Positions 4,090-61,160 of a stretch of 64,000 nt of DNA are shown here, in pieces. Source of the DNA: Anas platyrhynchos (Eukaryota; Chordata; Aves; Anseriformes; Anatidae). The translations under genes and the position numbers were made by a program. Numbering within the stretch: position 1 is the stretch's first letter; every line of letters begins with the position of its first letter. The DNA lies in assembly GCF_047663525.1 (NCBI RefSeq), contig NC_092592.1:24919001-24983000 (forward strand). The letters are read 5' to 3'. The notes beneath the pieces were generated by a model, which saw only the letters and a list, made by a program, of their open reading frames with translations, had not been told where the DNA came from and did not search any database.

Positions 4090-4431
4090 TCAGATTTGGC
4101 CGCTGAAACCTATGAATTTGGTAGGCAGATTGTCCACAGGGTACACTATGGGTCCTGTTTTCATTGTAGGAGGTCCATTCAGCAGCTGCCAGTCACAGCT
4201 CCGAGCCAGCTCCACTATAAATATTTTTAGAAGGACTTTTGCGAACTCTTTGCCCACGCAGCTTCTCAAGCCCCCACCAAAAGGAATGAAACTGAACCTA
4301 GAGGAGTCCTCCGGAGACGGAGACATGAAGCGATCCGGATTAAATTCATCCTTGTTGGTAAAGAGATCTGCTACATCGTGGGTATCACAGATACTGTAAA
4401 TAACATTCCAGCCTTTTGGGATCTGGTAACC
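4090..4431 (-). CDS. CYP26A1: CYP26A1 exon 7 (terminal, haem-binding)
   Basis: It follows a TTGGTAG acceptor and encodes residues 381-493 plus the stop. It begins GYQIPKGW and carries the haem loop FGGGLRSCVG with the cysteine thiolate. The coding end is a conserved-looking FSGQI tail. It aligns with CYP26C1 exon 6 from its first residue. Confidence 0.96.
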   Translation of the reverse strand, partial: GYQIPKGWNVIYSICDTHDVADLFTNKDEFNPDRFMSPSPEDSSRFSFIPFGGGLRSCVGKEFAKVLLKIFIVELARSCDWQLLNGPPTMKTGPIVYPVDNLPTKFIGFSGQI

Positions 4432-6711: not shown

Positions 6712-6780
6712 GGCTGGGAAGCGAGTCCAGCCCGGCCCCCCGGGAGCTCCGAGTGCGCGGGCCGGGCTCGCCGCGGGCCG

Positions 6781-10006: not shown

Positions 10007-10366
10007 TTAGGCCTCACTGCTGCAGCCAGGCCGCAAGGGGTGGAAGTAGAGCTGCAGCCCGTCCACAGGGTGCACGATGGGCACGGTCTGCATGGCGGGG
10101 TAGGCGGGGGTGGCCAGCTCCCAACGGGCTGTGGTGACCAGCTCGATGGCCAGCAGCTTGAGGATGGCCTGTGCCAGCTCCTTGCCGATGCAGCTCCGCG
10201 CCCCACCACCGAAGGGGATGTAGTGGAAGCGGCTGACGGCCTCTGGCCGGGTGGCACTGAAGCGGTCAGGGTCGAAGCCACCAGGGGGGCTCTGGTAGAT
10301 GGCGGCTGTCTCATGCGTGTCACGGATGCTGTACATCACGCTCCAGCCCTTGGGGATCTGGTAGCC
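10007..10366 (-). CDS. CYP26C1: CYP26C1 exon 6 (terminal, haem-binding)
   Basis: 119 codons plus a TAA stop after a TCGCAG acceptor. It begins [10 protein letters not shown] and holds the haem loop [10 protein letters not shown]. The tail ends [10 protein letters not shown], longer than that of CYP26A1. Confidence 0.95.
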
Positions 10367-12181
10367 CTGCGAGGGCAGAGGAGAGGAACGTTAGGCACCT
10401 TGCGAACGGTGGCAGCCAGGGACAGCCCTCCCTCCCTTTCCTCTATGTGCAAAGCACTTACATCCAGCTCGAAAGTCTGCAGCGCTGTCCTGTAGCCTCC
10501 GGAGACTGGGGGCAGCACCCGCAGCACCTCCTTGATCACACAGTCCAGGTAGCGCAGGCGGCTCAGCTTCTCCAGGCTGATGTCCGAGGGGCAGTGACAG
10601 GCCTGGGGCTGGGGACTGCTCTGGGGTTGTGTGGGCTCTGACAGGGCTGGGGGCTGAGGGGAGAGGCCACTGCTGGGCTCTGCCTCCTCCAGGGGGCCTG
10701 AGCACTGGCTCTGGTCCTCATGAGTATCTCTGGCCACGGCGGGGAGCTGCTTCTTGCTGTCCCTGCCCTGCGTGGGCAGGGTGTCTGGGCTGGGTCCTGC
10801 AGGGCAGCACTGGCACTTTGGGTACAGCTCATGGGACATCAGCTCCTGCCTGATTTTTTTGATTGCTGAGGGGTGCTTTAGTAGCAGGAGGATGAGAGAG
10901 GTGCTGGCACTGGCCGTTGTGAAAAAAGCAGCAAATATGAGCTCAATGGCTGATTCCTGGGAGGGAAGGAATGTGACAAGTTTGAATGTCAGTCTAAGCT
11001 GGTTGTGATTGAATTGCCCGACTGTCCTCTCCCTTCACAGGCTCTGCCCCTGGGCAGAGGGTCCTCTCCCTGCCTCTGCCCCTGCTCTCCACAGACCTGC
11101 TCACCCTCTTCCCAGCTCTCCTCCCAAGATTTACAAACCCTAACAAGATTTTTAACACATATTTTATCATACAGTGACATTCACTTTAAGCATTATGGGT
11201 TTTACCTTCATCTGCCGATTCACTGTTGTGCCCAGCTTTTGCCTCTCTGGCCAGCAGGGGTTATGAGGCATGTTTATGTATAGATAACAGATGCACTAGC
11301 AGCTAAAATGGGCTGCATTTAATCCATCTCCAGTTATAACTGACCATTTACTTATGTGGAAGGTGACTCAAACCGACACTCAAGAGCAGGAAGTTAAGAG
11401 TTACCCACAGCTGGGTCTGGAAGGAGAAGCCAAAAGCATTGGAAAGGACACCTGATGTCTTAAGGTACCTGGAACAAAGTCTGGTAAGGTCAAGGGTCAT
11501 GTAACAAGAACCGGTCTTTGCTATTCTCCCCAGCACCATATATTGACTGAACTACAGGTTTTTGCCAGCGTAGCTCTCAAAGGCATCTTTCAGCTGAACT
11601 GAAGCCTCTGAAATAACAAGTCCCTACCGACCCCATCGCACCTCCTGCAGGCATCAGTAGGAACTTTTACATTCAAGATAGCAGACCCAGATGAAAATAA
11701 ATCTCTCAGTTCCACAGCTTGCAATTAAAAGCCACCACAGTACAATGTGAGACTCTGCATTTTGAAGCGGTGGCCCTTATGACTCTCTGCATCAACCTCT
11801 GATGGTGCTGCCACCCCAGCTGTGACACAGCTGCTTACTTTCTATCCCAGCTGTTACAATGCCAACATGAGCCATGACAGTGAGGCTGCACCCTCACACA
11901 GTCGGTTCTGTCCCTGTGCTGCAGCCCAGCTCCTCGTCCTGTGATGCAGGACCTACAGCATTGCTGCTCAGCCACCCAGCCAGTGACAGCATGGTTATAC
12001 AGGATGCTTTTTTCTATCCTTCCAAGGTTTAAAACTTTCTAAAAAAAGTAGTTTTGACAGAATGATATATTTGTAATATCCTTGATATTTCAAGGCTCTT
12101 TCTGAGTTCAGGTCACTAGTGCAAACCACAGCATATTTAGGAAAATTTCTGAGAAAATTTTCTTCCCAAATCATGCAAGGG

Positions 12182-12218
<37 letters not shown>

Positions 12219-15200
12219 CAAATTAGTAACTAGTGTCACAAGTTTTGCAGTGTCCCTCAGGGTTGAATATATCCATTAGTCTAGGACAGTTTTGAACTTT
12301 CTACCCAATTACACCTGCAATGGATAAGAGCTCTACAATAGCAGATAATAGGGCCATATTTGCAAGTATAGGCGTTTGATTTGCAAGTCATTTTGTTAAA
12401 TGTAGGCAAGATAGAAAGTTTTATAACTGTAAAGGTACCAGACTGCATATAAATATACTGTCACTTGAACCAGCTGGCCCTAGGTCACTCCATGCTATGT
12501 TTAACAACCCTTTATTCCTACTGTTACTGTCTCACTTGTGGTCAGAGCCAGAGACAGAATGAGAGATCGTGTAATTATCCTTGTGCAATATACATGTGAA
12601 TACTAACAGAGATTAATCAAGTCTTATCAATCACATTTTGAATCCGGAAAACATTTATAATAATTATATTATTATAAAAAATATTATAATAAATAATATA
12701 AAGAAATATAAAGAAGCCATTTTAAGAATATACGCTATTTCTAATTGTACTTGATAATCTCTGTAATGTCTTTCAAATACTTCAGAATTTAGAGATTACA
12801 TTTTTACAAAATACATACAAAACATTTGTCTTTAGATAACTCTCCTTAAATATCTAAATAAACACTAAAACTGCGTGTCCCTTACTTTTAAACTATATAC
12901 AGCTGCTGTACCCATACAAAACTGCTTCAAAACTTGTTACATAAATGCAGCGTCATGTGTTGTTGACCGACACAGAATGACCTGGACATATGAATGATGC
13001 AGCGCTAATGACAATTTTTTCCCAGGATCTCTGGCAAAGTACTTTTCACTGGGTTTTGTCTCAGTGAGGACTGCTGGGTTCATCCCTAAGTCACAGCGAC
13101 GAGTCATGTTGCATCACAGCAATCCACAAGCTACGTGATATAATTAATGAGGTGATAGGGAATGACCCAGAACTCATCGTTCCATCCCTGGGCCCATTTT
13201 GATGTACTGTCTCAGTGATTTCTGGGCTCCCAGCCCTGAGGAATACAGTGACATGATCTGCACGCCACACTGTGCTAGATGTCAGGGGTTGCCTGAGGAA
13301 CACACAACTAGCCCTATGTATATCCAAGACTTTATCTGGGAGGTTACCAAGTTCAGAGCCTGAGCACAGCTTTATAACCCTAAACACACACTAAGGCAGG
13401 CTGAAGCCAGGTGGCCACAAAGAGGAAGGCAAAAGAGGTGTTTGTTTCCTCTTTAAATACCAGCTCTGTTGCAATGCAAAGACACAACCCTATGAGACCA
13501 TCTGAGTAGTGCACCACCCACCACCTCTGTGCTGGCGTTAGCGCTAGGGGCTGTTTGCACACCTACCCACCCTGGCACCCACTCCAGACAAGGTTCCCAT
13601 CCTCCCCAGCACTTTTCACTCTGGAGGCAGATGAGCTGCTTTTCACACGTGCTGACACTGTGGCAAGCACACAGCTGAGCTCACTGGGCCCAGGCTGTCT
13701 TGCTCACACTGGGGATGGGCTCCTCCGGGTTGGCAAGAGGCGGGAGGGAGCCAGCAGCTCACAACGGTCCCTCCACACCGTCCTTGTCCCACCACAACTG
13801 TCCTTGCCCCAACACAGCCCTCCTTCTTTCTCCTACCCCTCAGCCCAAGCCTCTCACAGACACCCAGTCTGAAGGGTTCTGGTTACCTTCAGCTCCTGCA
13901 TGGTGAATTCTTTGCCATGCTCCTTGGCACTGTTTATTATGAAATCCAGAGCATCACTATGGTCTTCTGAGTTGGTTCTCTGCAGTTTTTCCTGTATAGC
14001 CTTCTCCATGAACTCATGTAGCATGTCCCGTGCTTTGATTCCCTGTGGGAGGCAGACACAGGTCAGGGGAGCCCTGGGAATGCCCCCCTCTCCGGAGAGA
14101 CCAGGGGACCCCTTCTGTGGTCGTCTTTAATCCCAGGATCTGTAACAGCAAAAATTGTTTAACCTGTTGCCCAGCCCCAAAGCCTCACAAGAGGTAGCAG
14201 CTCGGTGAGAACTGCTGCAAGTTCTTTCAGCTTTCTGTTGCTAATCAAATACAAGTCCTAGGAAACATTTGGAGAGGAAACAACAGCAGCAAGCCCACAG
14301 CACTGAATCCAGGGGGGCCTGCAGTGAACAAACTCACAGTCTTGTCAGGTCCAAAGGAAGCTTGTCCGACAGGGGGGGAAGCAGTAACTTAATAAAACTG
14401 AGTCCAGGAGGCAAGGCACATCCGACAGTAAAAAAACGAGTGGCTTTTCCAGATACATGTTAACCACACCCAGCTGATCTCCGGCTGTGTTGCACTCCTG
14501 TGCAGCAAAACATTAGGAAGACCTTCGTGAGCCAACTGAAAAGCAACCTGCTGCAAAGTGGGGATGGATGGAGTCACAGAGTGTGGATCTGTAGCAAGAG
14601 GCCTCCTGCAAAAGCCTGGATCGGATAGTTAGGATGACCAGAAGCTGGGAAGAAGATGCAAAGGATGAGAGTTGAGTTAGGAAGGACTGGACAAAGGAAA
14701 TGGGAAAGCAAGAGGAAAGACAAGAAGAGATAAAAGCAAGTTAAAGAGGTTGGTCTGGGGCCAGACAAGCTGTGGCTGACCTGAGACAGGATGGAAGCTG
14801 GAAGCTCACAGTGGTGTCAGCCTGCAGGACAAGGGGAACAAGAACTTTAATCTGGTGAGAAGAGCCACAGGGAAGATGGGGGAGAGCTGGGGCTGGCCGG
14901 GTAAGGTGATCTGGTGGGGCAGAGCTCCCAGTGGAAATAAGAGATTGAACAAGAAGAGGCGGAGAGTTGGGCTGGGTGAATGGCCCAAAGCCAGGGGAGG
15001 GACAGGGGATATGAGGGGTGGGACACAGGACCAAAACCTAGAGTGGGAGTGTGGGGAGGCAGGTAGAAAGGGGCAGGACAGCAGGGAAGAAATTGGGGGT
15101 TGTAAGAGGCAGAGGAGGCTGTCCCTCTGCCATGATCCCCTCCAGGACTCCTCACTGTCTGTCCGCTGCTGGGGGACAAGGGACCACAGACCGTAAGTGG

Positions 15201-16612
15201 ATCTCAAGTCCTCAGCCTGCCTGAGCTGCACAGGAAGGTCCCTGCTGTGTCCTTTTTCCTCATGCCCAAAGATGCCTCTGCCATGGGCGAGCATAAGTCC
15301 AGGTGGGATGAGATGGGACAGGACCAGGTGTGATGGACTAGCCAAAGCCAAAACTAGCAATGTATGTAGCAAGTGAGAAGAGGCGAGAGGCATGCTGGCA
15401 ACCTCCAGAGAAGGGATCTGACAAGCCGACAGCTGCATAGCAGCAGAAAACAGAGGTTCAGGGGAGCTGGAACTCATCCTGGAGAAAAGGCTCCAGCAAT
15501 GCACATGGCAGCCCTGCATTGTACTGGAGGCCATGCAGGGAGGTGCTGGAAGCAAATCAGGAGCAGGGCGAGCAAAACATCAGGCCCTCAGCCCGGCACA
15601 GGTGCTGCAGCAGTCTTGGCCCTTTGTGGGTCCCCTTGGCAGGCCTGGGGACAGGGGCTCTGTGTCGCCACAGCCTGGCCCCGGCCCCCACACAAGAGGG
15701 CACGGAGCAGGCGGCAGTACCTTGCGCAGCCCGCTGAAGGGTATGTTGAGGGGCAGGGAGAAGAGGTTCTCCACCAGCTGTTCAAAAGTTTTGGCCAGGT
15801 CCTTGAACTGCTTTTCCTCCAGGCGGAGTCCCAGCAGAATCCGAGCTGCAATGCGGAAAGTTAAGGTTTTAGCGGAGGAATAAACTGCGATGGAGCCCGG
15901 CTCCATGCACCAGCCCCGCAGCTCCCAGCTCACAACCTTCTGGATCCGCGGCAGGTAGCTCTCCAGGGCGGTGCGGCAGAACACTCTGGCCAGGATCTAG
16001 GAGCAGAAGGAGGGGGAAGAGAGGCAGGTGGTTAAAGCAGGGGACCCACGTGCCACCGAGGCCCACGCCTAGGCAGGAGGTGCCACCTGGGCCGCGTGCC
16101 CTGCGAGGCTCACCTTGCGGCGCTGGCGGTGCAGGTCGCCGATGGAGCCGAGCAGGGTGTGGGAGCCCAGGATGATCTGGGTGCTCTGGGGCCACTGTGC
16201 GCTGACCAGTGTGTGCTCGCCCAGCAGGATCTTGCGGATGTTCTCGGCACCCGTCACCCGCACCACCGGGCGGCCCAGCAGGTGGGTCTTGAAGACGTTG
16301 CCGTACCGCTCCCGCCGGGAGCTGTGGAAGCGGGAGCCCTGGGGACGAGCCATGGGTCAGCCCCGGGCTCCCAACCCTCCATCCCCACCCCGTCCCCGCA
16401 CCCGCCGCCCCGCGCCTCACCTGGAGCAGCCAGTGCAGGGTCTCCCCGAAGAAGGGCCAGCCCATGGAGCCCTTGGGCAAGGGCAGGGCGCTGGCGCGGT
16501 CCCTGCTGAGGCTCCAGCGCAGCGCCCACAGGTGCCTGCACAGGGCGAGCAGCAGCGCCAGAGCCGCCAGCGCCAGCGCCGCCGCCGCGGGCCAGGAGAG
16601 CCCCGCCGGCAT
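10007..16612 (-). CDS. CYP26C1: CYP26C1, retinoic acid hydroxylase (6 exons)
   Basis: Third member of the CYP26 retinoic acid-clearing P450 family; the family enzyme is known to accept all-trans and 9-cis retinoic acid. Joined exons: 16421-16612, 16114-16338, 15721-15996, 13887-14042, 10462-10956, 10007-10366, giving 567 residues against about 522 in human. Features: N-terminal hydrophobic anchor (about 8-30), hinge [15 protein letters not shown], helix I segment FAAFFTTAS (291-299, the A-A version also found in CYP26B1/C1 rather than GGHETT), helix K ExxR (E426-R429) and haem loop [10 protein letters not shown] (500-509) with Cys507. The start ATG at 16612 has A at -3. All introns are GT..AG and phase 0. 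The extra length lies in a P/S/Q-rich linker (about 323-412) between helix J and helix K. Identification as C1 rather than B1 rests on position next to CYP26A1 and on overall similarity. Confidence 0.95.
10462..10956 (-). CDS. CYP26C1: CYP26C1 exon 5 (helices I-K, long linker)
   Basis: 165 codons between a TCCCAG acceptor and a GTAAGT donor. It corresponds to CYP26A1 exons 5 and 6 joined, without the intron between them. Helix I (AAFFTTAS) is at the start and KEVLR of helix K near the end. Between them lie about 90 residues with a CQCC cluster, SP/PQ repeats and an acidic patch; in CYP26A1 the same span is about 25 residues. The frame is open throughout, and no internal GT..AG pair is needed. 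Confidence 0.92.
11487..11499 (+). promoter_or_regulatory. Perfect DR1 nuclear-receptor motif in CYP26C1 intron 4
   Basis: AGGTCA, one A, then GGGTCA. DR1 elements are bound by RXR heterodimers, HNF4 or COUP-TF. The motif is seen; binding here is untested. Confidence 0.45.
12182..12217. repeat. Poly(A) tract
   Basis: 36 uninterrupted A in CYP26C1 intron 4, among the longest homopolymers in the window. No processed transcript is recognisable before it. Confidence 0.9.
13887..14042 (-). CDS. CYP26C1: CYP26C1 exon 4
   Basis: 52 codons from [10 protein letters not shown] to FTMQELK, with a CCACAG acceptor and an AAG/GTAACC donor. Compared with CYP26A1 exon 4 it runs three codons further (ELK), so the intron position differs by 9 bases between the paralogues. 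Confidence 0.93.
14043..15720 (-). other. CYP26C1: CYP26C1 intron 3 (1.7 kb)
   Basis: Purine-rich on the plus strand in 14650-15100. A 249-codon minus-strand open frame (14806-15555) is rich in S, P and L, has no domain that I recognise and lies wholly inside the intron; I do not call it a gene. Confidence 0.75.
15721..15996 (-). CDS. CYP26C1: CYP26C1 exon 3
   Basis: 92 codons from [10 protein letters not shown] to PFSGLRK. The acceptor is CTCCTAG and the donor AAG/GTACTG, which lacks the usual G at +5 and is therefore weak. It contains [13 protein letters not shown] and [14 protein letters not shown]. Confidence 0.93.
16114..16338 (-). CDS. CYP26C1: CYP26C1 exon 2
   Basis: 75 codons from [10 protein letters not shown] to HRQRRK, between a CCCCAG acceptor and an AAG/GTGAGC donor. 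It carries [14 protein letters not shown] and [14 protein letters not shown]. Confidence 0.95.
16421..16612 (-). CDS. CYP26C1: CYP26C1 exon 1 (membrane anchor)
   Basis: 64 codons from the ATG at 16612 to a CAG/GTGAGG donor. A short Ala/Leu-rich anchor is followed by [20 protein letters not shown] and the conserved [14 protein letters not shown]. Confidence 0.94.
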
Positions 16613-36738: not shown

Positions 36739-39700
36739 TGTTACCCCAATATAACACAAACTGGTGAGAAATTGAGCCTTTCAGTGTCTCTGTTCTGCTC
36801 ATTGCGTGGCTCAAGACCTCCTCCTGCTTTAGTGTGGAGTCAATTTATGGAAAGGGGGACGGTCAGCAAGGGAGTTGCTTCCTTCCCCAGCAAAGTGAAG
36901 ATTTGTGACCTGAAATCCAGAGAGGTGCAACTCCTGTTTTGTTGCTGTCTGAAATCTAAGCTCTTTTCTTTAGCTGAACAAGCAGCATTGCACTGAAAAC
37001 TCAGAGAAGCGCAAATCCCATTACATCGCACCCCGAGGCTGGGCTTCATGTTACAGATGTAACATGCTCCTCTGCTTGTTCGGAGAAGCTGGAGAATGGG
37101 TGGGGGGAGAAAGGGATCAGTAAGCATTGTGAAAGAGCCTCTGTGAAGATGAAAGTCTCAACAATCATTTCCCTCAGGAAGGGAAAGATGAAATATTCTA
37201 TAATACCTGCTAATTAAAAATTCAAACTGCTGTCTTATAAAAAGAGAAGCTTACTTTTACCTTTAAACTCCTAAGTTTTTAAGACTTACTTCTAAACATA
37301 CTGTTAGGGATTTCTTCCTCTTGGAAAACCCTGATGGTCCTTCTGGTCAAGACTCTTTCATGAAGCAGGGACTAGGAGTACCTGACTCCTTTCAACGCCT
37401 AGGCACTGCATGGACTGGCAGATTGTGCAGGATGCCTTTAGAGCCCGTGGCATTCAAGAATCATGTTAGAGCATTTTGGCAACAGCCTACAACTTATTCT
37501 CTGATGTCTACTTGAGAGCATTTTCCTTACAGATGGCAGGGAGCTTTGGCACGCTGTACGCTGGGGGAATCAGAGAGAAGCCAGAGCTGAAATGCAGAGC
37601 TGTACTACTACAAGAAATTAAATCAAATTAAACACTGCAAACAAAACAGTGGAGAAGACCAAGCTGTCAGTCTGCTTTTAGTGGCAGACACCTCAGTGGC
37701 TGGGATTGAACTCCAGCGATCTGTTTCACAGTTTCTACCTATGAGTTGCTACTGAGTTATCAGGACAGTAACATCTCTCAGTGATGAATGAGAAACAAAG
37801 GTGTGCAGCAGAAGAAGGACAATATTAAGATACAAAATTTTCTCTTTGAAATAAATTTACATCTGCTGCATGCAACACCACATTTCAGAAGGTTAGCAAT
37901 ATTTCTCATCAACAGTACACCAGAAAATGTATTACAAATTAAGTGGAAAAGCAACCCAAGAAACTAGCAATCCAGTTTCCATTATGCTTTGGAATCAGAG
38001 GGAAATACTATATTTTTAAATATCCAATATATTTTTTTAAAATTAATACATATTGTATATTAACAATAACTTGGGCTATTGGAAACGCTTATACACATGC
38101 TTATTTATACACAACACAAACAGAAGACTAAGAAAAATGTATGTGCTAATGCTTCCATGGTACATTATTCTGTATATTGATTGCATTGATTGTATTACAG
38201 CTTTATATATAATTACTGTCTAATTCTATCAAAATGTTAACAGAAATTGCTACAAAAGATTGAGTATTTTCTCTCATTACCTCTCCTGAATTTATGGACC
38301 CTATCATTCACAGTCTTTAAACAGTTTCACAGACTGTAAACTCTGTATTACCACATGGGTGGAGATATTGCTGTGGTGGTCACTTAACTTGGCGATTACC
38401 AACAGCACATCGTTCTGCTTCACTTCAGAATGCTGTCCCTGTCACAGGACCAGCACTAAGGGCAACTGGAGGATATTAAAATCATATGCTTAAGTGCCAA
38501 AAGAACACAGATGAGTCAGTTCTCTTCACCCCTGCCAAAATAAGAAAATTCCACAATCATCAAACTAGATGAGTACTTGTCTGAGATTAGACAGAAGAGG
38601 AAGAAGGCCTGTTTGATTCTGGAGTAGTGCTCATGGCAGAGAGAAACACTACAGATCACCTGTGAAGTCTAAGGTAAAAAAAAAAAAAGTCAAACTAAAT
38701 TGGCAGCCTAAATTGCAAGTCTGCAGGCAATAATTTTATTTCAAGAATAAGCATTTATTACCTCCCAATTGGTTAAGAAGCATGAAATTTGCCCTGGGAA
38801 ATCAACTATCGACACAATACAGCAGGACCTCTAAGGCTACCATTAGGTTATCATTATTGTCTACTACACACTACACTGGTTCTGCAAAGAATAAAAGCAC
38901 ACATTGTAACATTCAGGTCTTTTCCTCACAGCCTTTAACTGTCTAGGACATTCAGGAAACTGCCTCACATTACAGAACATGCTTAGAAATTCCTAGTGTT
39001 TAGACACTAAAGAACAGATCATAACCGGGACAAAAGTAATTCATGTAGGAGGCTGAACTTCCTTGGAGACTAAATCAAGTAGGACAAACTAAGACCTGTT
39101 CACTTTTGAAGTTTAATTCCAATTGACCTAAGATTTGAAATGGTAATGAATTCCCCAAAGTTCATTTCACCTCACGTTGGGCCAATACATTATTTACCCA
39201 GGCTCCCTATATAGTCAGTAGCGAGAGCTTATCTTCAGAGAGCAAGGCACGTCAGCTGAGAGATGGGTCATCTTCAAGAGATGCCAAAGACCAGTTTCTT
39301 TATAGAGTCACATGCCGCTTTGATAATTGCCTTGGTGAGCTGGCTTGTACCTCAGTGGTGTTAAGTGGGGTGAAAGGGTGCACCCAAGTATGAACTCAGG
39401 TCATATGGTAAGACATGTGGCAGGAGACATGATACAATTACAGCAGCCATACAGCACCATGAATTTATCCCAATTTTCTTAACAGCTGCTGGCTGCTTTA
39501 GTACCTGCTAAACTAGCTAGAGCTGCAAGTTTCTAGATGGTCATGGCCACGTGATTCTTAACTAGTACAGGGAATTGTACATTGGTATTCTCCCTGTACT
39601 GAAATTCAGGTAACTAGGAAATTGCTGTATGTTATTCTATGGTTCTACAGCCACTGCCTGTATTCCCAAGTCTGAACTACAAACCCATCTTACCAGCAGA

Positions 39701-48700: not shown

Positions 48701-51700
48701 ACTCTGAACATCATCTTGCGACAGTCCCTTACAGATTGTAAGGCATCATTTGCTGCAACATACTATTCTGCCAAGCTGCCATCTTTAAGCTACTCAAAAG
48801 GTTTCTGTGCAAAACCATTTTTTTCTAACAAGCTTTAAAAGCGTAAAAAGAATTGAAGTTTATTCTATTTGCAGTTGTACATATTTCAGACACTAGAAAA
48901 AATAACATGGTGGCAACAAGCTTTCTCTGCTGTTATACTATTAGTTCAGAAGGCAGATAACTGTGTAGTGGATGCACCAATTTGACTTGTCTAGATAAAT
49001 GATTATGGTATCAGTATTATCAATGTTATGAAATTTGTTTTGCAGCTGGGATTTTTTTTTTTAAACCAAGAAACCACACAAATGTGCATACATACCCCTA
49101 TTCACCTACTTGAAAAGAACTCTATCAAATTTGCAATACAAAAATATATAAATTTGTACTAAAAATGACAAAATATCTGCATACCTCTATTTGGCCAACT
49201 TGTGCAATCATGAGACAAACTTTAACATCACAAATACCTTTTTTTTCAAAACAGACTCTGATAATCCTGTCAGGTCCTCTCATTGCACTGAAAGGCCTCA
49301 AGGCTGCACAAGTAAGAACTGTCAGAAAGATGCCTGCCTTGTTGTGGAGTTTAGATGGAATGCACAAACAGGGCAAGAGGAGGAAAGAAACACTTGAAGT
49401 GAAAAAGTCACAAATGCCCTTTAACTCTATTCCCACAAGAATCCTTTATGATGCTCACTAAATTACTTGAAAACAGATTTCCAGTTTCCCATGGTGGCTG
49501 CTAATTGAGTAGTCATCAGTTTTCTCATATGCCCACACTAAACACACCCGAGGATTTGCAAAACTGCCACTTTTTAAAGCAGTCATCAAAATCATTGAGG
49601 TCTCTGCTTCAATCATATGAGGAATGATATTTTAGAAATAAATAAATAAACAGGAAAAAAAAAAAAAAGAGTATAAGAAACTAAAGATATGAATTTTAAA
49701 AAGCCCTAGTCAGCCTTTTTGTTGCATCTCAGTCACAACCATAAAAACCTATTCATAACCTATTCAGTCATCGACCATAAAACCTATTCATATCACAACG
49801 TTATGAAAGTAACTTCCTTAATACAGAGTATGAGCTCACCCTACGGTGGCGAGTTCCATGTAAAACATGATAAAATTAATCCTGCCTTCAGTGCTGGATT
49901 CAACCAGTTTTATGACGTAATTCTGTATTTTGAATAGTGAGAATAAAACAATGTCTGACATCTATTAAATGAGTACTACTACTCTAGTGAGTACCCCTAC
50001 TTACAGTGAGTAAGGCAATAGTTTTAGGAGAGACAAAACCTATGTAACAACACAAATAGAACTTGTATTGTAATAAATACTCCCCGGAGGGAAAACTAAA
50101 TTTCACAGACTTTTGACCTTTTGGTGCACAACTATAAGACCATAATATTTATATAGTGATTTGGGGCAATTCTGTGCTAGGCTATGGTCTGTTTATGGGA
50201 TGTACTCATTATGATGCCATTAACAGTAACAACAGATGGACGTTTCAATCAGATACTAAAGTTTTAAAAATATATATATATAAATTTTCCCAGAAATGTT
50301 AACATAATTAATCATAAATACTTTTACAGGAGGCTGTAATGCAATAACATTAAAAGTAAAAAAAAAGACAGTTTTAGTAGATAATGGAAAAAGATCACTA
50401 TATAGCTTACGTTAAAGATTTTTTTTGCAACGCTAAGACAGATATAGATAGGAATATGGAGATATCTACTTACATTCACACTGTATCACATCTAAATTAA
50501 ACTGCTGAATTGCTCCCATGCTTATTTGTTTTAATTCACTGTCCAGTAGCATCTGCATTAGGGATGTTGAAAGATGCTGGCAGGCTGACATGCAAGCTGT
50601 CTGTGCCACTTTTCCCTAGTAGAAAGAGCAACAGGTTTTAAGATAGAAACAAATGTTATGTCAGTAAAGAACGTCTTATCTGATTTGAATTTATTATACA
50701 GCCAAAGTCTTAATGATGCAGGACTTAGGTTAGAAGAGGAATGATCACACTTCTTGTTATTTCTTTGGCCCATTAGCTTCATTTCTATTAAATCAATTAG
50801 GGAGCTAAATTAAATGTATGTTAAACAATCAAACAATCACTGATACTTCTTGCAGAAATCCAACAGTCTTCAAGAATACAAAGACATTTCCCAACATGGA
50901 AGAGCATAATAACAATGTAAGCTGCAGAAGCATGAGCGTGGATTTTTTTTTTTTAACCCAAACAAAATGAAAGCAGGAATGTAAATCGACATGCCACATA
51001 TTCTTAACAACAGTCATAAATAAATAAATAAATAAATGTGTGTATATATATAAACCAAAACCATTGCTTTCAGTTGGGGCATTTCTCATTACAGCTTGCG
51101 CCACTTAATTACTTGAATTCCATCTCAAAGGTTGTTGCTAAATTATTTTAAATATTCATGCTTATCCATCATCTTTCAGGTGCTTAATAAATCAGTGCTG
51201 TCTGTAATCAACAACTTGCAAAATGAAATGCAGCCCTCTGCTGTACAAAATAGAAATAATTCCCTAATCACAGTTTACCAAGTAAAGTTTTTTCATCTTT
51301 TTACAATGTATATGTAATTGAGACAAATAATTTTCCAAACCAGAGACCAATAAAACAAATCCCCCAAATCAGATGTTAATTTGATAAATCACTAACAATT
51401 TCATACAGAAAATCAGAAAAATATAGAAGTTCTACCAGAGAAGAAAAATCAGTTAAGACCAGATACCTGATTAGATGGCAACATTCTATTCATAGCACTG
51501 CGATCTTTAAGAGCAGACACCTTGGTTTTCAAATGCAATTATATGAATTTCTGTCTCTGTAGTTTCATGTATTTAAACCACGCTTTTCAATTGACATATG
51601 TTACGGTATATATGGAACCAAAAGTAACTATTAACATGTTTATATGAAAGAAATCATAATTATGTAATCCACCTACTGGACTACAAACCACTACTGTTTT

Positions 51701-54700
51701 ACTTATATCCATCAGCAAAGTGATGACACCTATTCTCTAAAGCAATGGTTCCCCAACTGTTTTCTGCAAGGTCAGGATGATCAATTCACTACTGACTCAG
51801 AGAAACACATATAAGCAATGAAAAATGGGAAGGACTGACAGCAGTTCACTTTTCCAGAAGTTTGGAAAGTTCTGCTCTAACATCTGAAGAGCCCGATCTT
51901 TCCCTTAACAAGACAACCTGTACATAGCATTGTATATTCATGTACATGTATACATATTGTAGAAAGCACATTTCTCCATAAACATTGTGTACTTTAAAAA
52001 TCCATGCTTTGTTAAAGCATAATAAAATGTAGACAATACAATGTAAAATGTTCATTCTCTTCATATGTCAAACAGAAACATTAAAGGGCTTTTGCTAATA
52101 CCTCTTTGGCATTAAGACACCTTGAACTGTTAGGAGCTTTATATCTAAAATGAGATGTCAGTTTCTTAATTGAACATCTCAGAAAAGCAAATAACATTTT
52201 TGACCAAAATAGATGAACTGACAACAAAGAATGTAAGAAACAATGCAAGAACAGCATGCTTAAAAGTCTCCCAAACCCAATGTTAATTACACTGGGAGAC
52301 ATGCAGCTCTATTCCCCAAGCAGAACAATATCAATATGAATGGAAAAAAAAAAAAAAAAAAAAGACCAAAAAAATGGGGGGGGAAGAGGGGAGGAGAGAA
52401 AAAGGGGGTGAAGAGGGGAATTAATGGGCCACAGTTCATTTAATTACAATGTAGTAGGTTTGAAATACTTAATGGAAATGTCATTTTGATTTAATGGAAC
52501 AACTAGTGCATCTCCGTTTAATGTACTGCTCCATCAAATCAGCTCCATGTCCTATTTATGCTGCCACTATAATGTAATAAAAGTTCAACCAGATTGATAG
52601 GTTGTCAAGAAAAAAATTAACATTTAATTTGTTTTATATGCAAATGATGTTTACTCCCTCCCCTGTTATTATAAGTAAAAGACAGAATTTTATCTTTCTG
52701 ACAAACATCTGTAGGTAGTTTCTACAATCTGGCAAATATCAATAGTACTGGAGCACAAGAAATAATGGTTACAATACAGAAATGACATGGTAAAAGTCAC
52801 TTGGACTTTAAAGAAGTATCAATACATGAACATTTAATGCTTCTTTTAAATTTTCATAAGATGGAAACATCCTAACATTTAAACTATTTCCAACTATGCA
52901 ACTTGAACTACAGGCTTATTGTTCACAAGGTATATCAACAAATAATAGAAGTTTACTATGCATAGTTTATACTTGATGTATCACTTGATTTTTGTAAGAC
53001 TAGAGGAAAAAATGAAGCTAAACATATCAACCTAAATGCTGAATTTTAACTCAGAAAAATACAGATTTTACTGTTATCCTCCTCAAAATTCAGGGCTTCC
53101 CAGCGCAAAATATGCTGGATGTACAACATACCAAAAATAATTAAATTCAAATTTGGTTGACAAATGAGTTCCAGTTAAAATCTCTTTCCAAATTTCCATC
53201 ATTCCCCAATTAATTAATTACTTGCCATTTTTCATAATGCATTCATTTTCATAATGCAGGAAATTTAATGATCTATGAACATAAAAAGAACATGTTTCTT
53301 TTCCAAAATGAAACAAATCTCAGTTTTAAAACATTCATAATTTTTATCTTTTTAAGAGGGGGTGGCTGTGGCTACTGTATGAAGCAATTAAATACCTATA
53401 TTCAGTAGCATGCAGAGATTCAGGATGCTTCTCACATTCGTTCCAGTTTTGCCTCCCATTTGGGAAACACTACTATTATCTCTGCTCTGCCTATGTTAAT
53501 TGCTGCTATCTACAAAACCTATTCTTCCACTCAACCAATGTAAAGTTTAAGAAACAAGGACCCTATTCTATAAGCAAAAACACCTGCGAACAGTATTAAA
53601 GGCAACTGTTTTTTAACCCCATCTTCACATTTTGCTGAAATACAAGTTTGTAAAAAGAGAAACCCCTTAGACAAACTGCTTATATTTCAAAGGAGCATGT
53701 AAAGAGAATCTGCTGACATATTAAATCCTTTTTTATAGGACCCAAAAGCTTTTCTCCTAAGAACAATTGCAGTAAAGAGACATTTGGCTCCTAGGAAATT
53801 CCCAAAGGGTCAGCCATATGCATCCTTCCATGGCACCTTCATGGTGCTGCTTTCTAAGACCCACGCTAGCCGTCTCAAAAGCAGCTTTCATCATTCACTA
53901 TGGTGTCAGTCAATATGATTTATGGACTGCATTCAACAAAGTCAAAGCATATAGAATGAGAAATATGACTACAATCTGCTAATTTGTTTTGTATTGAGCC
54001 AGTTACGAGTCAAAGACCTGATGTCAGGCTGAGACCAGCAACACAATTAACCGTCCAGTGACAGATTCATCCATCCTCCCTGCCAGGCTGTGCCAATCAA
54101 AGACAGCATGAAGCGGCATTTGGAGAAATCAGGGAAAAAACCACCATTCACTAAGTAGCCTGTGAAGGCTTTTGATTGACAGTTTTTGAATATAGCTGCA
54201 GAAAACCACCACCCCTTCACCCTCACTGCAAGCTGTGAAATTGGGCTTTTGCTGTCAATCACAGAAACAATAAAATAACACAAACTGCCATCCTCAGCAT
54301 AAAAGGAGATAACAAAACTTATCTGTTAAAACTAAGAAGTTAAGCTTAGGAATTAATTTAACATTATGAAATGACAAATAATTAAAAAAAGACTTTCTGA
54401 AACTGGAAAAAAAAAAAAAACAAAAAAAAAAAAAAACAAAAAAAAAACAACACCCAATCCTTAAACATACAGATTTCATCAGTTATAATAACTGGTAAGT
54501 GCATAGATTTTGTACTCTTTGCTTTATCTGCTTCTTTGCTGCTTATAGCAGCCCACACATTGCATATGCATATGATAACAGTTGGACTTGATGATCTTAA
54601 AGGTCTTTCCCAAACTAAATGATTCTATGATTCTAATAACTAAAGCAAGAATAAAATACAATTTTTGAACTATTGATAAAAAAAAAAGTATATTCAAAAT

Positions 54701-57700
54701 CACAAATAGAGTTTAAGACTCAATTTTACTTCCAATCTCCACATTCTAATGAAAACAGTCAAAAAATACCTAATTGAAAGTAATTTGTAATTTTAACTTT
54801 TCACTGGTCATTCATTTTCTCTTTCAGAGTTGTCCAATACTAACTTTGTACTGACAAAGCATGTAAATTGTGTCTGGAATAAAAGTTCAGATAATTCTAA
54901 ACTTCAGTTAAAAACCTTTATATACCCTCTATAATTTCAAATTAACTTATCTAAAACAAGAGGTATGATTACTCATGCCTCATTTAGCTGTTTACTTCCA
55001 ACACTAGTTTAGGCCCATTGGTTTTTTTTGTTTTTTGTTTTTTGTTTTTTTTCCCCCTGTCTGAGCCAGGAAAGGGTTTGTCTCCTCTTTTCCTATTCTC
55101 AGAAGAACTCTGCCTAATACAGTTTTTTACTGCAGTGATGATGAGACAGGTGGAATTTCCCACAATCTACTAAAGCAAGTGTGTAAAGTTAGGAAAAAAA
55201 GATCATAAGCTACTCACTGAACTGAGGTTTCTTTGATTAGTGAAATGTGTACTACGTCTTTCAATAAAGCCAGCTAAACTTTTCCTGACAGGGAAGGTGG
55301 CACAGGAACTAGCTTTAAAGAAGCTGCTGTATGGAACCCACATCCTCTCTATTATTTGGAGTGGTAAATTAACTGGAAAGAGATGAGAACAGCCCTAGAG
55401 GCACAGACAGAAAGACTAAAATAAAACCATAGCTGGAATTCACTCTTACTGGGTCACATACTAAAACTGCTTCAGCAGTGACTCCCAGCCACAGCACTTC
55501 AGCTCCAGTGTCCCAGCCTCTGTAAGACAAGGAGGCAAGTTCCTCAAGGCACTGCTGACTTTCTAATGAGATCACCAATCTTAAGACCATCCCATCAGAA
55601 ATAAAGGAGAACTGAGCACACTACTAAGGACCTTTAATGTTGGAAATTGATACTTAATTTCTAACAACTTTCCTTAAAGCACACTCTTTTGCTGACACTG
55701 TAGAGGAAGCATGCTAGTTGGTGCGATAGGCTCTATCCAGGCTGAGTAACTGAATTAAGCTTTGGTTTTATCTGATGTAAAATACCAGGATAAATTTAGG
55801 TGCAAACTAAAAATCCTGAGAAAACATTATAACTATCCAAAATTAAAAGGAAAAAAAGCAAACGTAATATAATTTTATGTACATCCAACGTATTTTTTTG
55901 GCAGTCAGGAACAGGATTTGCTACTTAATGTATGCTAGTCAGCTTTAAAGACATTCTCTACACACTCTAACACAAGGTACTTTGGATCCACTTCCAACTT
56001 CCTTGGAAATCAGGACTCCAAGATTCCCTCTACTGTTTTTGGCATCTAGTCTAAGAGTGCAGTCCTGTTAGAAAATAGTCCAGATGTCTGGCTACCATTG
56101 ATAAAACATTCTAATCCACACCACACACAAATATTATAACTGAAGCTTTCTAACGCTACTCTTGAAAATTACTGAAAAATACAGCAAGGAGTCCTAGACA
56201 ATAACACTGGTACTACCGTTGTTTTTTTTTTGTTTGTTCGTTTGTTTTTTTTTCCCTTTTGACTGGTATGTTTTATTTTACTTCTAAATTGTTTTAACAT
56301 AAATTGAAGGTTTTAATTAATAGAATAAAATGACTGCTTCGTATTTGCCCACCTCTTACACATGTATTTGAAGTGTATGCTTTACTGAATGCAGAGAATA
56401 GATCTGTGGAACAGTTAGATACTGAGTTTCAAAGCTTTTGCTCCAGTCTTTATCCTTAATCTAAAACACACAATGTCTTGAGTTAATTATTTCTTCCCTG
56501 AGGAGATGTAATTTTAACTGTAAAAATATGAATCCCCACACTGTGTATGGTAATGCCTTATACATTTATTTACTTAAATAGTGAATGGCACAGTGTACAT
56601 TTGTTCAATTAAGCAGCATACAGCAATAAGATTCAAACACATCAGAGCTGATAAACCAGAACTCTATATTCACAGAAAACTACTAAAAGTAACTATATGA
56701 ATTTCAACATTTTCATTATAATTAAAATGCTTATGCCAAATGAATTGATGACTTAAAAATAATCAGAACTTGGAGGAATTTTTAAATGTAATTCATCATC
56801 TTCTAAACAAATATATATTTGGGCATACACATTCCCTTGACCTCTGATAGATGTAGCAGAGGAACAATGGAACTTTCACTGATTCTTTATTTTGTTTTGT
56901 CACTCCACCTCTATTCTGTATGCATGCCTTATAGCTGCATTTTGATACCTGACCTCACTTCCAAAAGGTTTCAGCCTCCTCTAAATGATCTCATTTGGGA
57001 TGCAATGCACACCCCACCACCCTTCTGCAAGGTTTTTAGGGCTCCTGCCCCTCAAGTGCATGAAAACTCAGCATTAGTCGTTAACCTGATTCCTGCATGC
57101 AGTCACACAAGGTACACAGCAAGTCATCAGCAAAACAGAAAGATCTTTTTATTAAATGATTAAAAATTGAAGCAATAAGCCTGCAGGCAGTTCATAGTTT
57201 TTCAGTTCACATGCTTTTTCTTCATCTTTCATCTACTTACCGACATAGCTGCATGGTCATTGTTGTTATTCTGAGAAGGAAACCAGTAAGGCAATCAAAA
57301 CAAAAAAATTAAGATGTACTGTCAACATCAAAAAAAAAAAAAAAAAAGAATAAAAAATTGGTAGTAATAAAAGGTAAGGAAAAGTTTCAAAAAATAACAA
57401 TTATATCTACATAATCATTTTTTCTTAAAAAAAAAAAAAGAAAAAAAAGGAACTTTTATAGTATTTTGTCAAGGCCCAACAAAGAGATTAAGAGATTATA
57501 ATTGAAGTAATAATAACCCAATAATAAAATGTTTTTCTGTAATAAGGACAAGTATGCCAAAATATCAAATTAGCAATCCTTCAAATTAGGAAACATCTGT
57601 TGATATGCCTTTCCAGAAAGTTTTCATTACCACAAATAATCAATTCCAAAATACTTTGGTTTTAAAATAAATGCCATGCTTACTGTCTTGGCCTATAGAG

Positions 57701-60374
57701 ACTATCTGTACATTATTAATGTATTTCACACAAAATTTAGAATGGCTTAGGACAGTATTAATCTAAATGTAACACAATGTATTAATATTTTTTTGACATA
57801 AAGCAAAAGGTACTATAACTGGAAGATTAAATAAATGTATTTTCTTTCCCCAAACTGACACTAAAGCACAGTGCATAAATACAGAGAAGAAAAACTATGA
57901 TATAAAACTTGAAAGAAAAAACATTTGGAGATGTAAGACGTTTCTAGCAATTCCATGTGTCTACATTTCTACAGAAATAATTCTGTATAGACCCATGTGG
58001 GAGCACAAAAGGAGACATCCCCATGTGTTTACACAGCTTACACATACATCTAAAATAAGACAGGACTCTAATGGCAGGAATTTGACAACAGCCAAACAAT
58101 TGTTAAAGAACATAGCCTAACACTTTTACAGTAAGACTAGATTTTGAAACAGTATCAAAGAGAATGTGTGTAACCCGTGAATGAGACTATGGAGAATGAA
58201 TGCAGCAAAGTAGTGCCCTAAGCCCTAGCACTATAGCACAATTGGATCCACTATGGTAGTAAGAGAAGAGGTTCCTCTCTACTTGTCCCACTCTTTTCTT
58301 TAGTAAAATTACAACCAGTGGTCAGAACTTTTGTTCTTTGATTTCTGATTACAGGCATGGTTCTGAAGAACTATTTTGCTGTTTCTGCCAGCAATACAAA
58401 AATTGTTATAGAAATGACACTGTGACATCCTTATTCTGTTAATGAAAATGAATACTAAAATTATTCTAAATTTTAACTGTGCCATATGCTAATCTAGTTT
58501 TGCCTATGACTCCACAGCACTTAATGTTTTCCTGAATTATGGAACCTACTTCTGAGCTTGCCACAGAAAATATCTTTAATGAAAATAACTTACTACTATG
58601 TATCTAATTAGAATCACCAAAATTAAACTGTATGCACATTTTCATATAATCTTCACAGCTCATGCACAACAACATTTATAGGACTGTATTTTTCTACAAT
58701 CTGCCAAGCCAGAACAGTAAGTGATGCACGGTATAAGTCAAGTTAGAAGAACCCTCTTGCCAGAGCAGACTAGTCAATTGTACAGCCCCAGCCTGTTACC
58801 TGGCCAGAGTTCGAAATTATAGAATAACCTCCTCATAGGAACTAGTTTTCTCAAAAGTTTGGCTTGTGTCCCCAGGCGCTTATTTATATTCCCTTCATGC
58901 TTTTCAGGTCCTAATACCATAGTAGCATCTTCACAACCCTCCTAACAAACTATCTCATTCAAGGAAACCACATTTTCATTTCAGCTCATAGAAGAACATT
59001 ATTTCTGTCTGGGCCCCATTTTAGAACAGGTATATCACAACATACAGTCATGATAAACCTCTTTTCATCTTTCTCTAGAAGCTGTACATCATTGTTCACA
59101 GCTGCTATATGCACGTGGCCATTGAGGAGCAATGCCATTTGTTCAAAGAGTGACAAAAAGTGATGGTGAAATTAACTAACAAACATGCTCTTCTTTATTA
59201 AAAAAAATGCTTGACTTACTTGGCATGAAAGCACATGCCTCATACTTCCATTCACATAAACATTATGTGATACATTTTGAGTTGGTTATATCTTTGAGTA
59301 ATTAAAAAAAATAGACTAAAGAATCACAACCACTTAACATGATTTAGAAGACCTGAGAAGCCTGCTACGCCAGCAACTTCAAACTTTGCTGCGCACATAA
59401 ATAAATTATCTTTTATTTCCACTCTGGAGCCTCAAAACATTCTATGCATTGAGAACTAATTCCTGATAGGCACTGCATGTGGGTAAAGCAATCAGACATC
59501 AGTGTGACGGCAGCAACCAAGGACAAGCTGACAAAAAGCAGATGCAGTTCGAAAGACTTACTGAAGTTATTCCATACTTACAAAGGTATAAACTATTATG
59601 ATGATAACTCAAATTAGAAATTGTCTTTTTTATCTTAAAGCAAGGGGAAATCAGACAACAGAATATAACAATGAGCACACAAAACAGGTTGCCAATGCCC
59701 TTTTACCTAGAACAAAGTGACAAAGAATATATTTGAATAAGAACAAGGACTTGGTTCAAGGAAGCTCGTTTAACAAGAATCAAATGACTATTTAACTAAA
59801 AACAACTTTGGAGAACCAGAGTATTCTGCACAATTGCAGGACTTACACCAATTCGGTGTCCTTTAAATCAATGAATGTGTATATGGAACTGTACACAGAA
59901 GGCCATTTGAGGGCTAGCCCACTCTAGAAAACCACCTATTTACGAATTGTTTTGTAAATTAGCTGTTGTTACAATTATTACTAAAGTATTCAAAAGCATT
60001 TTTCTAATTATTATGATAGATAAGCATCATCAACATAGTGAAACATCTGAAAACACGTCTGTATTGAAAATACTGGAAAATTAATCTGCTAGCATGTATG
60101 CAATTCAAAAATCACATATTTGTTCAAAACGTCAGTATTTTAAAATAAAATAAAGCTACAATGGCTTGAAATTAAACGTATTTTCAACACTTACAGGTAA
60201 ATGAGTAAAAACTTGAAATGTGCTTCTTAAAAAGTTAATAAGGTCCATTAAGTATCCACTGGCTCTTCCATCTGATTCAGACATTGTCCAATCATAGTCA
60301 GCAATTTGAATAAATTCATCTATTTTTTGGTTAAGTTTCATATATATTTCTCCTTCTGCAGCATGCCTTGCATC
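18278..60374 (-). CDS. EXOC6: EXOC6 (exocyst subunit Sec15A), C-terminal part
   Basis: Sec15 is the exocyst subunit that links the tethering complex to Rab11-type GTPases on secretory vesicles. Five constitutive exons lie here: 60195-60374, 50474-50615, 42872-42945, 19260-19372 and 18278-18410. Joined, they encode the last 213 residues (human protein about 804), from DARHAAEGE to a QHT terminus. The frame is open across every junction, with phases 0, 1, 0 and 2, and each intron is GT..AG. The segment belongs to the helical C-terminal domain that in fly Sec15 carries Rab binding. The upstream exons, starting with the one encoding the part before DARHAAEGE, must lie beyond 64000. Assignment to EXOC6 rather than EXOC6B follows from sequence recall and from its position next to CYP26C1/CYP26A1. 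A 30-base candidate microexon lies between the first two exons. Confidence 0.94.
18411..19259 (-). other. EXOC6: EXOC6 last intron (849 bases)
   Basis: Donor GTAAGT, acceptor CTCCAG. Nothing else is recognisable in it. Confidence 0.85.
19260..19372 (-). CDS. EXOC6: EXOC6 penultimate exon
   Basis: 37 codons plus two bases: LLDLFMVWDWSTYLADYGQA followed by TSKYLRVNPSTALTLLE. The acceptor is CCCACAG and the donor GAGAA/GTAAGT. It is nearly identical to the human segment as I recall it. Confidence 0.95.
24241..24282. repeat. Short inverted repeat (stem-loop)
   Basis: Arms ATACTTACATAAAGCACT and its complement meet almost directly (CT loop), with a 4-base ACAT insertion in the left arm. Confidence 0.7.
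25643..25671. repeat. Poly(A) tract after a GC-rich islet
   Basis: 29 uninterrupted A immediately after a GC-rich stretch of about 140 bases. It could be the tail of a retroposed sequence, but I recognise no parent and no target-site duplication. Confidence 0.85.
26172..26185 (+). promoter_or_regulatory. Perfect DR2 nuclear-receptor motif in EXOC6 intron
   Basis: GGGTCA, AA, AGGTCA. DR2 is one of the spacings bound by RAR/RXR. It lies about 9.5 kb upstream of the CYP26C1 start. The motif is seen; its function is inferred. Confidence 0.4.
33137..33171 (+). repeat. GC hairpin followed by T18
   Basis: GCCCTCT and AGAGGGC form a perfect 7-bp stem with a CCA loop, directly followed by 18 T. It resembles the end of an RNA polymerase III transcript or a bacterial terminator, but no matching RNA is recognised upstream. 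Confidence 0.6.
36705..36735. repeat. (TA)n microsatellite
   Basis: About 15 uninterrupted TA units in an EXOC6 intron; probably length-variable. Confidence 0.95.
42574..42596. repeat. Poly(A) tract
   Basis: 23 uninterrupted A, about 280 bases downstream (in gene direction) of the EXOC6 exon at 42872-42945. Confidence 0.9.
42872..42945 (-). CDS. EXOC6: EXOC6 exon (FASSEPVPGF segment)
   Basis: 74 bases: two bases completing a Leu codon, then FASSEPVPGFQGDTLQLAFI and DLRQ. The acceptor is CCTTGCAG and the donor CAA/GTAAGA. The phases match both neighbouring exons exactly. Confidence 0.94.
42946..50473 (-). other. EXOC6: EXOC6 intron, 7.5 kb
   Basis: AT-rich intron. It contains a GC-rich islet at about 46380-46760, an imperfect tandem duplication at 47357-47413 and an exon-like 34-base segment at 44227-44260 bounded by a CTGCAG acceptor and a GTAAGT donor. 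No supported coding exon. Confidence 0.8.
47357..47413. repeat. Tandem duplication of a 36-base unit
   Basis: A 21-base segment (ATGTATTAAGTGGCTTACAG core) occurs twice, 36 bases apart; a local duplication with no coding role. Confidence 0.8.
50474..50615 (-). CDS. EXOC6: EXOC6 exon (GKVAQTACMS segment)
   Basis: 47 codons plus one base: GKVAQTACMSACQHLSTSLM onward to NLDVIQCE. The acceptor is TTCTACTAG and the donor GAAT/GTAAGT. The residues match the Sec15 C-terminal domain. Confidence 0.95.
52344..52363. repeat. Poly(A) tract followed by G-rich purine stretch
   Basis: 20 uninterrupted A, then a purine-rich region to about 52420 with several G runs. Confidence 0.85.
54574..54635 (+). mobile_element. 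CR1 LINE 3' end fragment
   Basis: The sequence GTTGGACTTGATGATCTTAA, then AGGTCTTTCCCAAACTAAAT and a terminal ATTCTATGATTCTA, matches the 3' end of chicken repeat 1, whose copies end in short ATTCTATGA-type repeats. Only about 60 bases remain, as is typical of 5'-truncated avian CR1. No coding part survives. It is the one clear interspersed repeat in the window. Confidence 0.88.
57241..57270 (-). CDS. EXOC6: Candidate alternative EXOC6 microexon (30 nt)
   Basis: A 30-base, phase 0 segment encoding NNNNDHAAMS, with a long pyrimidine-rich tract ending TTTCCTTCTCAG before it and a consensus GTAAGT donor after it. It lies between the exon ending THLP (phase 0) and the exon starting GKVAQ (phase 0), so inclusion adds ten residues without a frame change. 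It is not in the standard human protein as I recall, so I take it as an alternatively included microexon. A TTGCC sits about 18 bases before the acceptor; UGC-containing motifs there are typical of SRRM4-dependent neuronal microexons. Splice sites and frame are seen; use is inferred. Confidence 0.65.
57271..60194 (-). other. EXOC6: EXOC6 intron, 2.9 kb
   Basis: AT-rich intron upstream (in gene direction) of the candidate microexon, with donor GTAAGT after THLP. A-rich tracts near 57330-57350 and 57428-57450. Nothing else recognised. Confidence 0.8.
60195..60374 (-). CDS. EXOC6: EXOC6 exon (DARHAAEGE to THLP)
   Basis: 60 codons, phase 0 at both ends: DARHAAEGEIYMKLNQKIDE onward through YDWTMSESDGRASGYLMDLI to FTHLP. 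The acceptor is TTTTCAG and the donor CCT/GTAAGT. This is the most 5' EXOC6 exon in the window. Confidence 0.95.
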
Positions 60375-61160
60375 CTGAAAACAAATAAATAGTGCACAAT
60401 TGTCAGAATTCTAAAATACTACTAGGACATAAATAGTTCTCATCAGTTAAACTTAAGTCTTGTGTTTTTCTCTGATACAAGGTTTACCTACCCTATGTAA
60501 AAAAGAGAATAACAAAAGAACGTAGTTATTTTATCTGTTATGGCGGGAGGTCCGGCAATCATAGGATTTTTATGTAATTAATTTAATGCTGTATATCTGA
60601 AGAATACACATCATTTTTCACCCTCCCATACATATCCTGATCATAACACACTGATGCAGAGCACTCCGCTACTTCCTCATGCTCCTTTTTGTTCTGCCAC
60701 TATCTAGATCCTGCTTTTGTGCCAGTCAACGTAGAAATGATCTGATCAGAGATAACATCTAGCATTTACTGTGAAGCAAGATTATGATGCTATCTGCCTG
60801 ATTTGTTTAGGACAGATCCTCATAGAAGCAATGGGATCTACCTACAGATGCTTGATAAAGTGTATCTTGCTAGAAAGGAATGCTTTTGCCAGACTGGAAT
60901 TTAATGATACTGGAAAAATTCCATACTGTGATTCAAGCTCAAGATGAAACTTTCTTCAGTGATCTTGAGAAACAAATCAATAAAGAGGTTTAATTTTAAA
61001 TGAACTGGTCAGTTGCTGAGGGTTTTTAGAGAGGAAAAATAGGTTGGGTACACTGGAGCAACATAGAAGTGGATAAAATTCCCATTTCAAGTTTCCTCTA
61101 AGATAAACCAGCCTAAAATCATGGCAGTGCAGACAAGGTGTAAATAAGAAAATAAAAAGG

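Follow-up and report, generated by a model that had tools for sequence, protein, structure and literature searches.

The locus raises the question of whether a 30-nt segment in a long intron is a regulated microexon of the host gene, which we take to be EXOC6. Sec15/EXOC6 is the subunit by which the exocyst is believed to take up contact with the Rabs of vesicles, and the regulated microexons of vertebrates are 3-30 nt long and controlled by Srrm3/4, Rbfox and PTB. The window (the whole stretch of 64,000 nt of Anas platyrhynchos DNA that was analysed) was examined for the frame and splice sites of the segment, for its flanking motifs, and for its place in the Sec15 protein. The coordinates of the features are as in Table 1.

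Table 1. Candidate segment, flanking motifs and neighbouring EXOC6 exons, with positions in the window.
Feature	Position	Strand	Basis
Exon A of EXOC6, upstream; last residues ..FTHLP, phase 0	60195..60374	-	Sec15_C; 2a2f
T-rich region with acceptor CAG, branch-like YTNAY sites, TGC and a long T run from -77	57271..57349	-	sequence counts
Candidate 30-nt microexon, NNNNDHAAMS, phase 0/0	57241..57270	-	sequence; splice-matrix scores
Donor GTAAGT of the candidate	57235..57240	-	sequence and matrix score
GCATG, Rbfox-type motif, +27	57210..57214	-	motif scan
TGCATG, Rbfox-type motif, +140 (GCATG +141)	57096..57101	-	motif scan
ACTAAT, Quaking-type motif, +163	57073..57078	-	motif scan; 2 ACTAAY in the whole 9.6-kb intron
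Exon C of EXOC6, downstream; first residues GKVAQ.., phase 0 at start	50474..50615	-	Sec15_C; 2a2f

Candidate segment and its splice sites

The candidate segment is stop-free and is bounded on the minus strand by TTCTCAG on the acceptor side and GTAAGT on the donor side, with TTTCCTTCTCAG directly before it and GTAAGTAGATG directly after it. Its host intron is 9,579 nt long, of phase 0, and is located between exons A and C of EXOC6. Re-reading of the DNA reproduced exactly the sequence, coordinates, frame, NNNNDHAAMS peptide and flanking exon ends given in the initial annotation, and the location between two phase 0 exons was likewise correct (..FTHLP^GKVAQ.., phase 0 on both sides). Since the intron is of phase 0 on both sides, inclusion adds exactly ten residues. 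In size and frame the candidate resembled a microexon, with a length within 3-30 nt and divisible by three, no stop and phase-matched neighbours.

Splice sites were scored with simple weight matrices. On this scale the candidate obtained 6.25 bits for the acceptor and 4.82 bits for the donor, compared with 5.95 and 2.75 bits for the acceptor and donor of exon A and 6.75 bits for the acceptor of exon C. Both sites of the candidate scored about as high as, or higher than, their counterparts in exon A and looked functional. They had been described as excellent; the good consensus was evident at these scores while the wording was somewhat strong. The donor of exon A itself (60189-60200, minus strand; ..CCT^GTAAGT) was weak on the exonic side, with its 2.75 bits against the 4.82 bits of the candidate.

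Splice-site strength and flanking context against chance

Every AG..GT pair of 3-51 nt that was in frame and free of stops was ranked by splice-site strength. The candidate ranked third of 2,856 pairs on the sense strand and, by strength alone, fifth among the pairs on both strands of the window. Across the two strands of the window, five pairs using four different acceptors, candidate included, had a summed score of at least 11 bits, and the other four pairs (at three acceptors) were counted against a genuine microexon. Among simulated versions of the host intron, a pair of equal strength (≥11 bits) was seen in 4% of 200 dinucleotide shuffles and in 5.3% of the Markov runs, both for the 300 of third order and for the 300 of fifth order. 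Since 4-5% of simulated introns match the candidate and the window holds several introns, its splice strength by itself was unimpressive and not beyond chance. The comparable pairs in the real-sequence and simulated controls rule out splice-site strength as proof of an exon.

These counts, together with the presence of several introns and 23 GTAAGT on the sense strand of the window, favour a decoy pseudo-exon, in which a T-rich stretch gave rise to a chance acceptor with a GTAAGT 30 nt further on, and which would never or hardly ever be spliced. The window's top in-frame pair (4543-4590, plus strand, 48 nt, 13.72 bits) lies on the strand opposite to that of the genes and illustrates the strength that a decoy can reach. 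A further strong in-frame pair of 9 nt encoding TSQ (38660-38668, minus strand, 12.04 bits) was observed in a later EXOC6 intron; it had no GCATG in +7..+156 and is probably a decoy.

When both sites had to score at least 4.5 bits, a threshold chosen afterwards, no in-frame pair on either strand of the window other than the candidate qualified, which was counted for a genuine microexon. Pairs of this kind were present in 3.7% and 3.3% of the runs of simulated introns, and in 0.3% and 0.7% when a GCATG was also required.

Upstream of the candidate AG, the T content over 98 nt was 61%, a value matched or exceeded at 0.18% of 4,367 sense AGs. No AG was present from -48 to -3 of the acceptor, and branch-like YTNAY sites placed their A at -17, -25, -39 and -52. 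A UGC close upstream is a feature of Srrm4-type microexons (the UGC-SRRM4 pairing), and a nearby UGC had been proposed as a cue for this candidate. A TGC was indeed found at -23, yet 2125 of 4369 sense AGs (49%) carry one in -40..-3 and the UGC, being uninformative, was not taken as evidence for a microexon.

Downstream, exons activated by Rbfox have (T)GCATG within about 200 nt; the motif-factor pairs concerned here are GCATG with Rbfox and ACUAAY with Quaking. The candidate had such Rbfox-type motifs at +27 and +140/141. At least one GCATG in +7..+156 was found for 16 of 119 sense GTRAG donors, and two for only 2 of the 119, candidate included. Among the 15 pairs of at least 8 bits, the candidate alone had a GCATG in this interval. 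The share of simulated introns with a pair of at least 11 bits and a downstream GCATG was 0.7% at third and 1.3% at fifth order, the GCATG criterion having been picked after the site was seen. The case for a real exon is strongest in its context, with T-richness before the acceptor and a pair of GCATG after the donor. These are stronger cues than the UGC on which the initial annotation had leaned, although its reading of a well-formed candidate was reasonable and in part supported.

For a genuine microexon were thus counted the in-frame and stop-free sequence, phase 0 on both sides, the pair of downstream GCATG and an upstream T content within the highest 0.18%. Upstream T content and downstream GCATG, and the low frequency of equal pairs with GCATG in simulated introns (0.7-1.3%), argue against a decoy, with the reservation that all of these context criteria were post hoc and that T-richness overlaps with the acceptor score. 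Overall, the sequence gives the candidate an even chance of being a genuine 30-nt microexon of EXOC6 that is alternative and skipped in most cases, and the decoy was considered a serious rival with a probability somewhat under one half; both weights were set by judgement and not by calculation. Splicing noise, with very low inclusion in many tissues and neither regulation nor function, would share the same splice sites and could arise in so long an intron (9,579 nt), but it gives no reason to expect a multiple of three in length, neighbours of matching phase or the lack of a stop (weak arguments at 30 nt), and was considered very improbable.

Relatives, RNA structure and neighbouring genes

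A degenerate pattern of the NNNNDHAAMS peptide gave no exact match in the viral and genome contigs searched, and vertebrate EXOC6 was not found in either contig collection. The search with the exon protein produced 18 pattern stretches in the viral contigs, none of which was confirmed as a relative, and 36 in the genome contigs, of which one (L001) was confirmed. The latter was judged a chance match, being located in a spirochaete MAG in a frame opposite a long ORF that by eye resembles an ABC transporter ATPase. The literature searches brought up no description of a microexon in EXOC6, and this was counted against a genuine one. In the part of PMC7017197 that was available, the single use of the word "microexon" denotes a program option.

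Folding of the RNA of 57120-57360 (minus strand) showed that 200 of 200 dinucleotide shuffles were at least as well folded (z +2.38), and a hairpin around the candidate is accordingly not proposed; the low structure probably comes from the T and A runs. No Rfam match at gathering score was obtained within the window. A repeat origin was also rejected, as 57600-56900 and its surroundings matched elsewhere in the window only as 23-35 nt pieces of T or A runs among the matches listed, and the tandem repeats within 50600-60400 lie away from the candidate.

Two cytochrome P450 genes (4090-6780 and 10007-16480, minus strand) were located downstream of EXOC6, and one ORF of each matched Pfam p450. 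The NCBIfam search of two P450 pieces gave only matches far below the cut-off. The two genes are presumably CYP26A1 and CYP26C1, the usual neighbours of EXOC6 in vertebrates.

Place in Sec15 and putative control

Joined together, exons A and C matched Pfam Sec15_C (E 1.2e-35). That the insertion would fall into the C-terminal half of Sec15A, as had been proposed, agreed with the match of both neighbouring exons to this domain. The joined exons also aligned with the solved Drosophila Sec15 chain 2a2f (E 2.4e-23) with no gap at the junction, as the skipping form would align, and this was counted against a genuine microexon. Yeast Sec15 (5yfp_F) gave a weak match (E 0.029) in which one additional residue precedes the junction by a few positions.

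AF2, run on the single sequence of exon A by itself, predicted a helix at residues 39-57 of 60, with a mean pLDDT of 71.8 and a value of 65 over the last ten residues. The insertion point is three residues past the predicted end of the helix (at moderate confidence), which was counted for a genuine microexon. Since this helix ends at residue 57 of 60, the ten residues would probably extend a loop, and such an insertion in the C-terminal domain of Sec15 would be the likeliest effect of a working microexon. Drosophila Sec15 is said, in the title of a 2005 paper by Wu et al. that PMC2635961 cites, to bind Rab11; any effect of NNNNDHAAMS on Rab binding is an inference.

If the candidate is a working microexon, the motifs point to an Rbfox/PTB-type switch as its likeliest control. 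The small size of the exon and polypyrimidine-tract-binding proteins on the T-rich region would lead to skipping in most cells. Where Rbfox is abundant, as in neurons and muscle, its binding to the GCATG at +27 and the TGCATG at +140 would promote use of the GTAAGT donor and inclusion. NNNNDHAAMS would then follow closely on a helix in the C-terminal domain of Sec15 and form a longer polar loop, which might affect how the protein contacts Rab GTPases or its partners in the exocyst. For a real exon, control by Rbfox was considered the most likely, with a better than even chance, control by Srrm3/4 less likely than that by Rbfox, and control by Quaking in glia possible.

The paralogue offers a partial parallel, which was counted for a genuine microexon. 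According to the part of the ASCOT report that was available (PMC6952364), mouse Exoc6b has an oligodendrocyte-selective exon, and the present locus is similar in being a paralogous gene with a putative alternative exon and a Quaking-type ACTAAT at +163. The position, length and sequence of the mouse exon do not appear in that part of the report, so the case goes no further than cell-type-specific splicing of the paralogue and does not establish that the two exons are homologous. Separately, the ACTAAT at 57073-57078 may bear on this glial exon (PMC6952364, in part).

Compared with the regulated microexons of vertebrates, the candidate is alike in its 30 nt divisible by three, lack of a stop, phase 0/0, T-rich upstream region and downstream GCATG. 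It differs in that its UGC is no more than background and in that it is known from sequence alone. If working, it would be a further case of this known class and not a new class. The full reading, in which an undescribed PTB-repressed and Rbfox-activated microexon adds a polar Sec15 loop that switches exocyst-Rab coupling in excitable cells or glia and has a counterpart in EXOC6B, appears improbable on the present sequence. Should the candidate not be real, it would illustrate well the frequency with which T-rich introns give rise to strong pseudo-microexons that are in frame. If it is real, it would provide a simple cell-type switch on the presumed Rab-receiving subunit of the exocyst.
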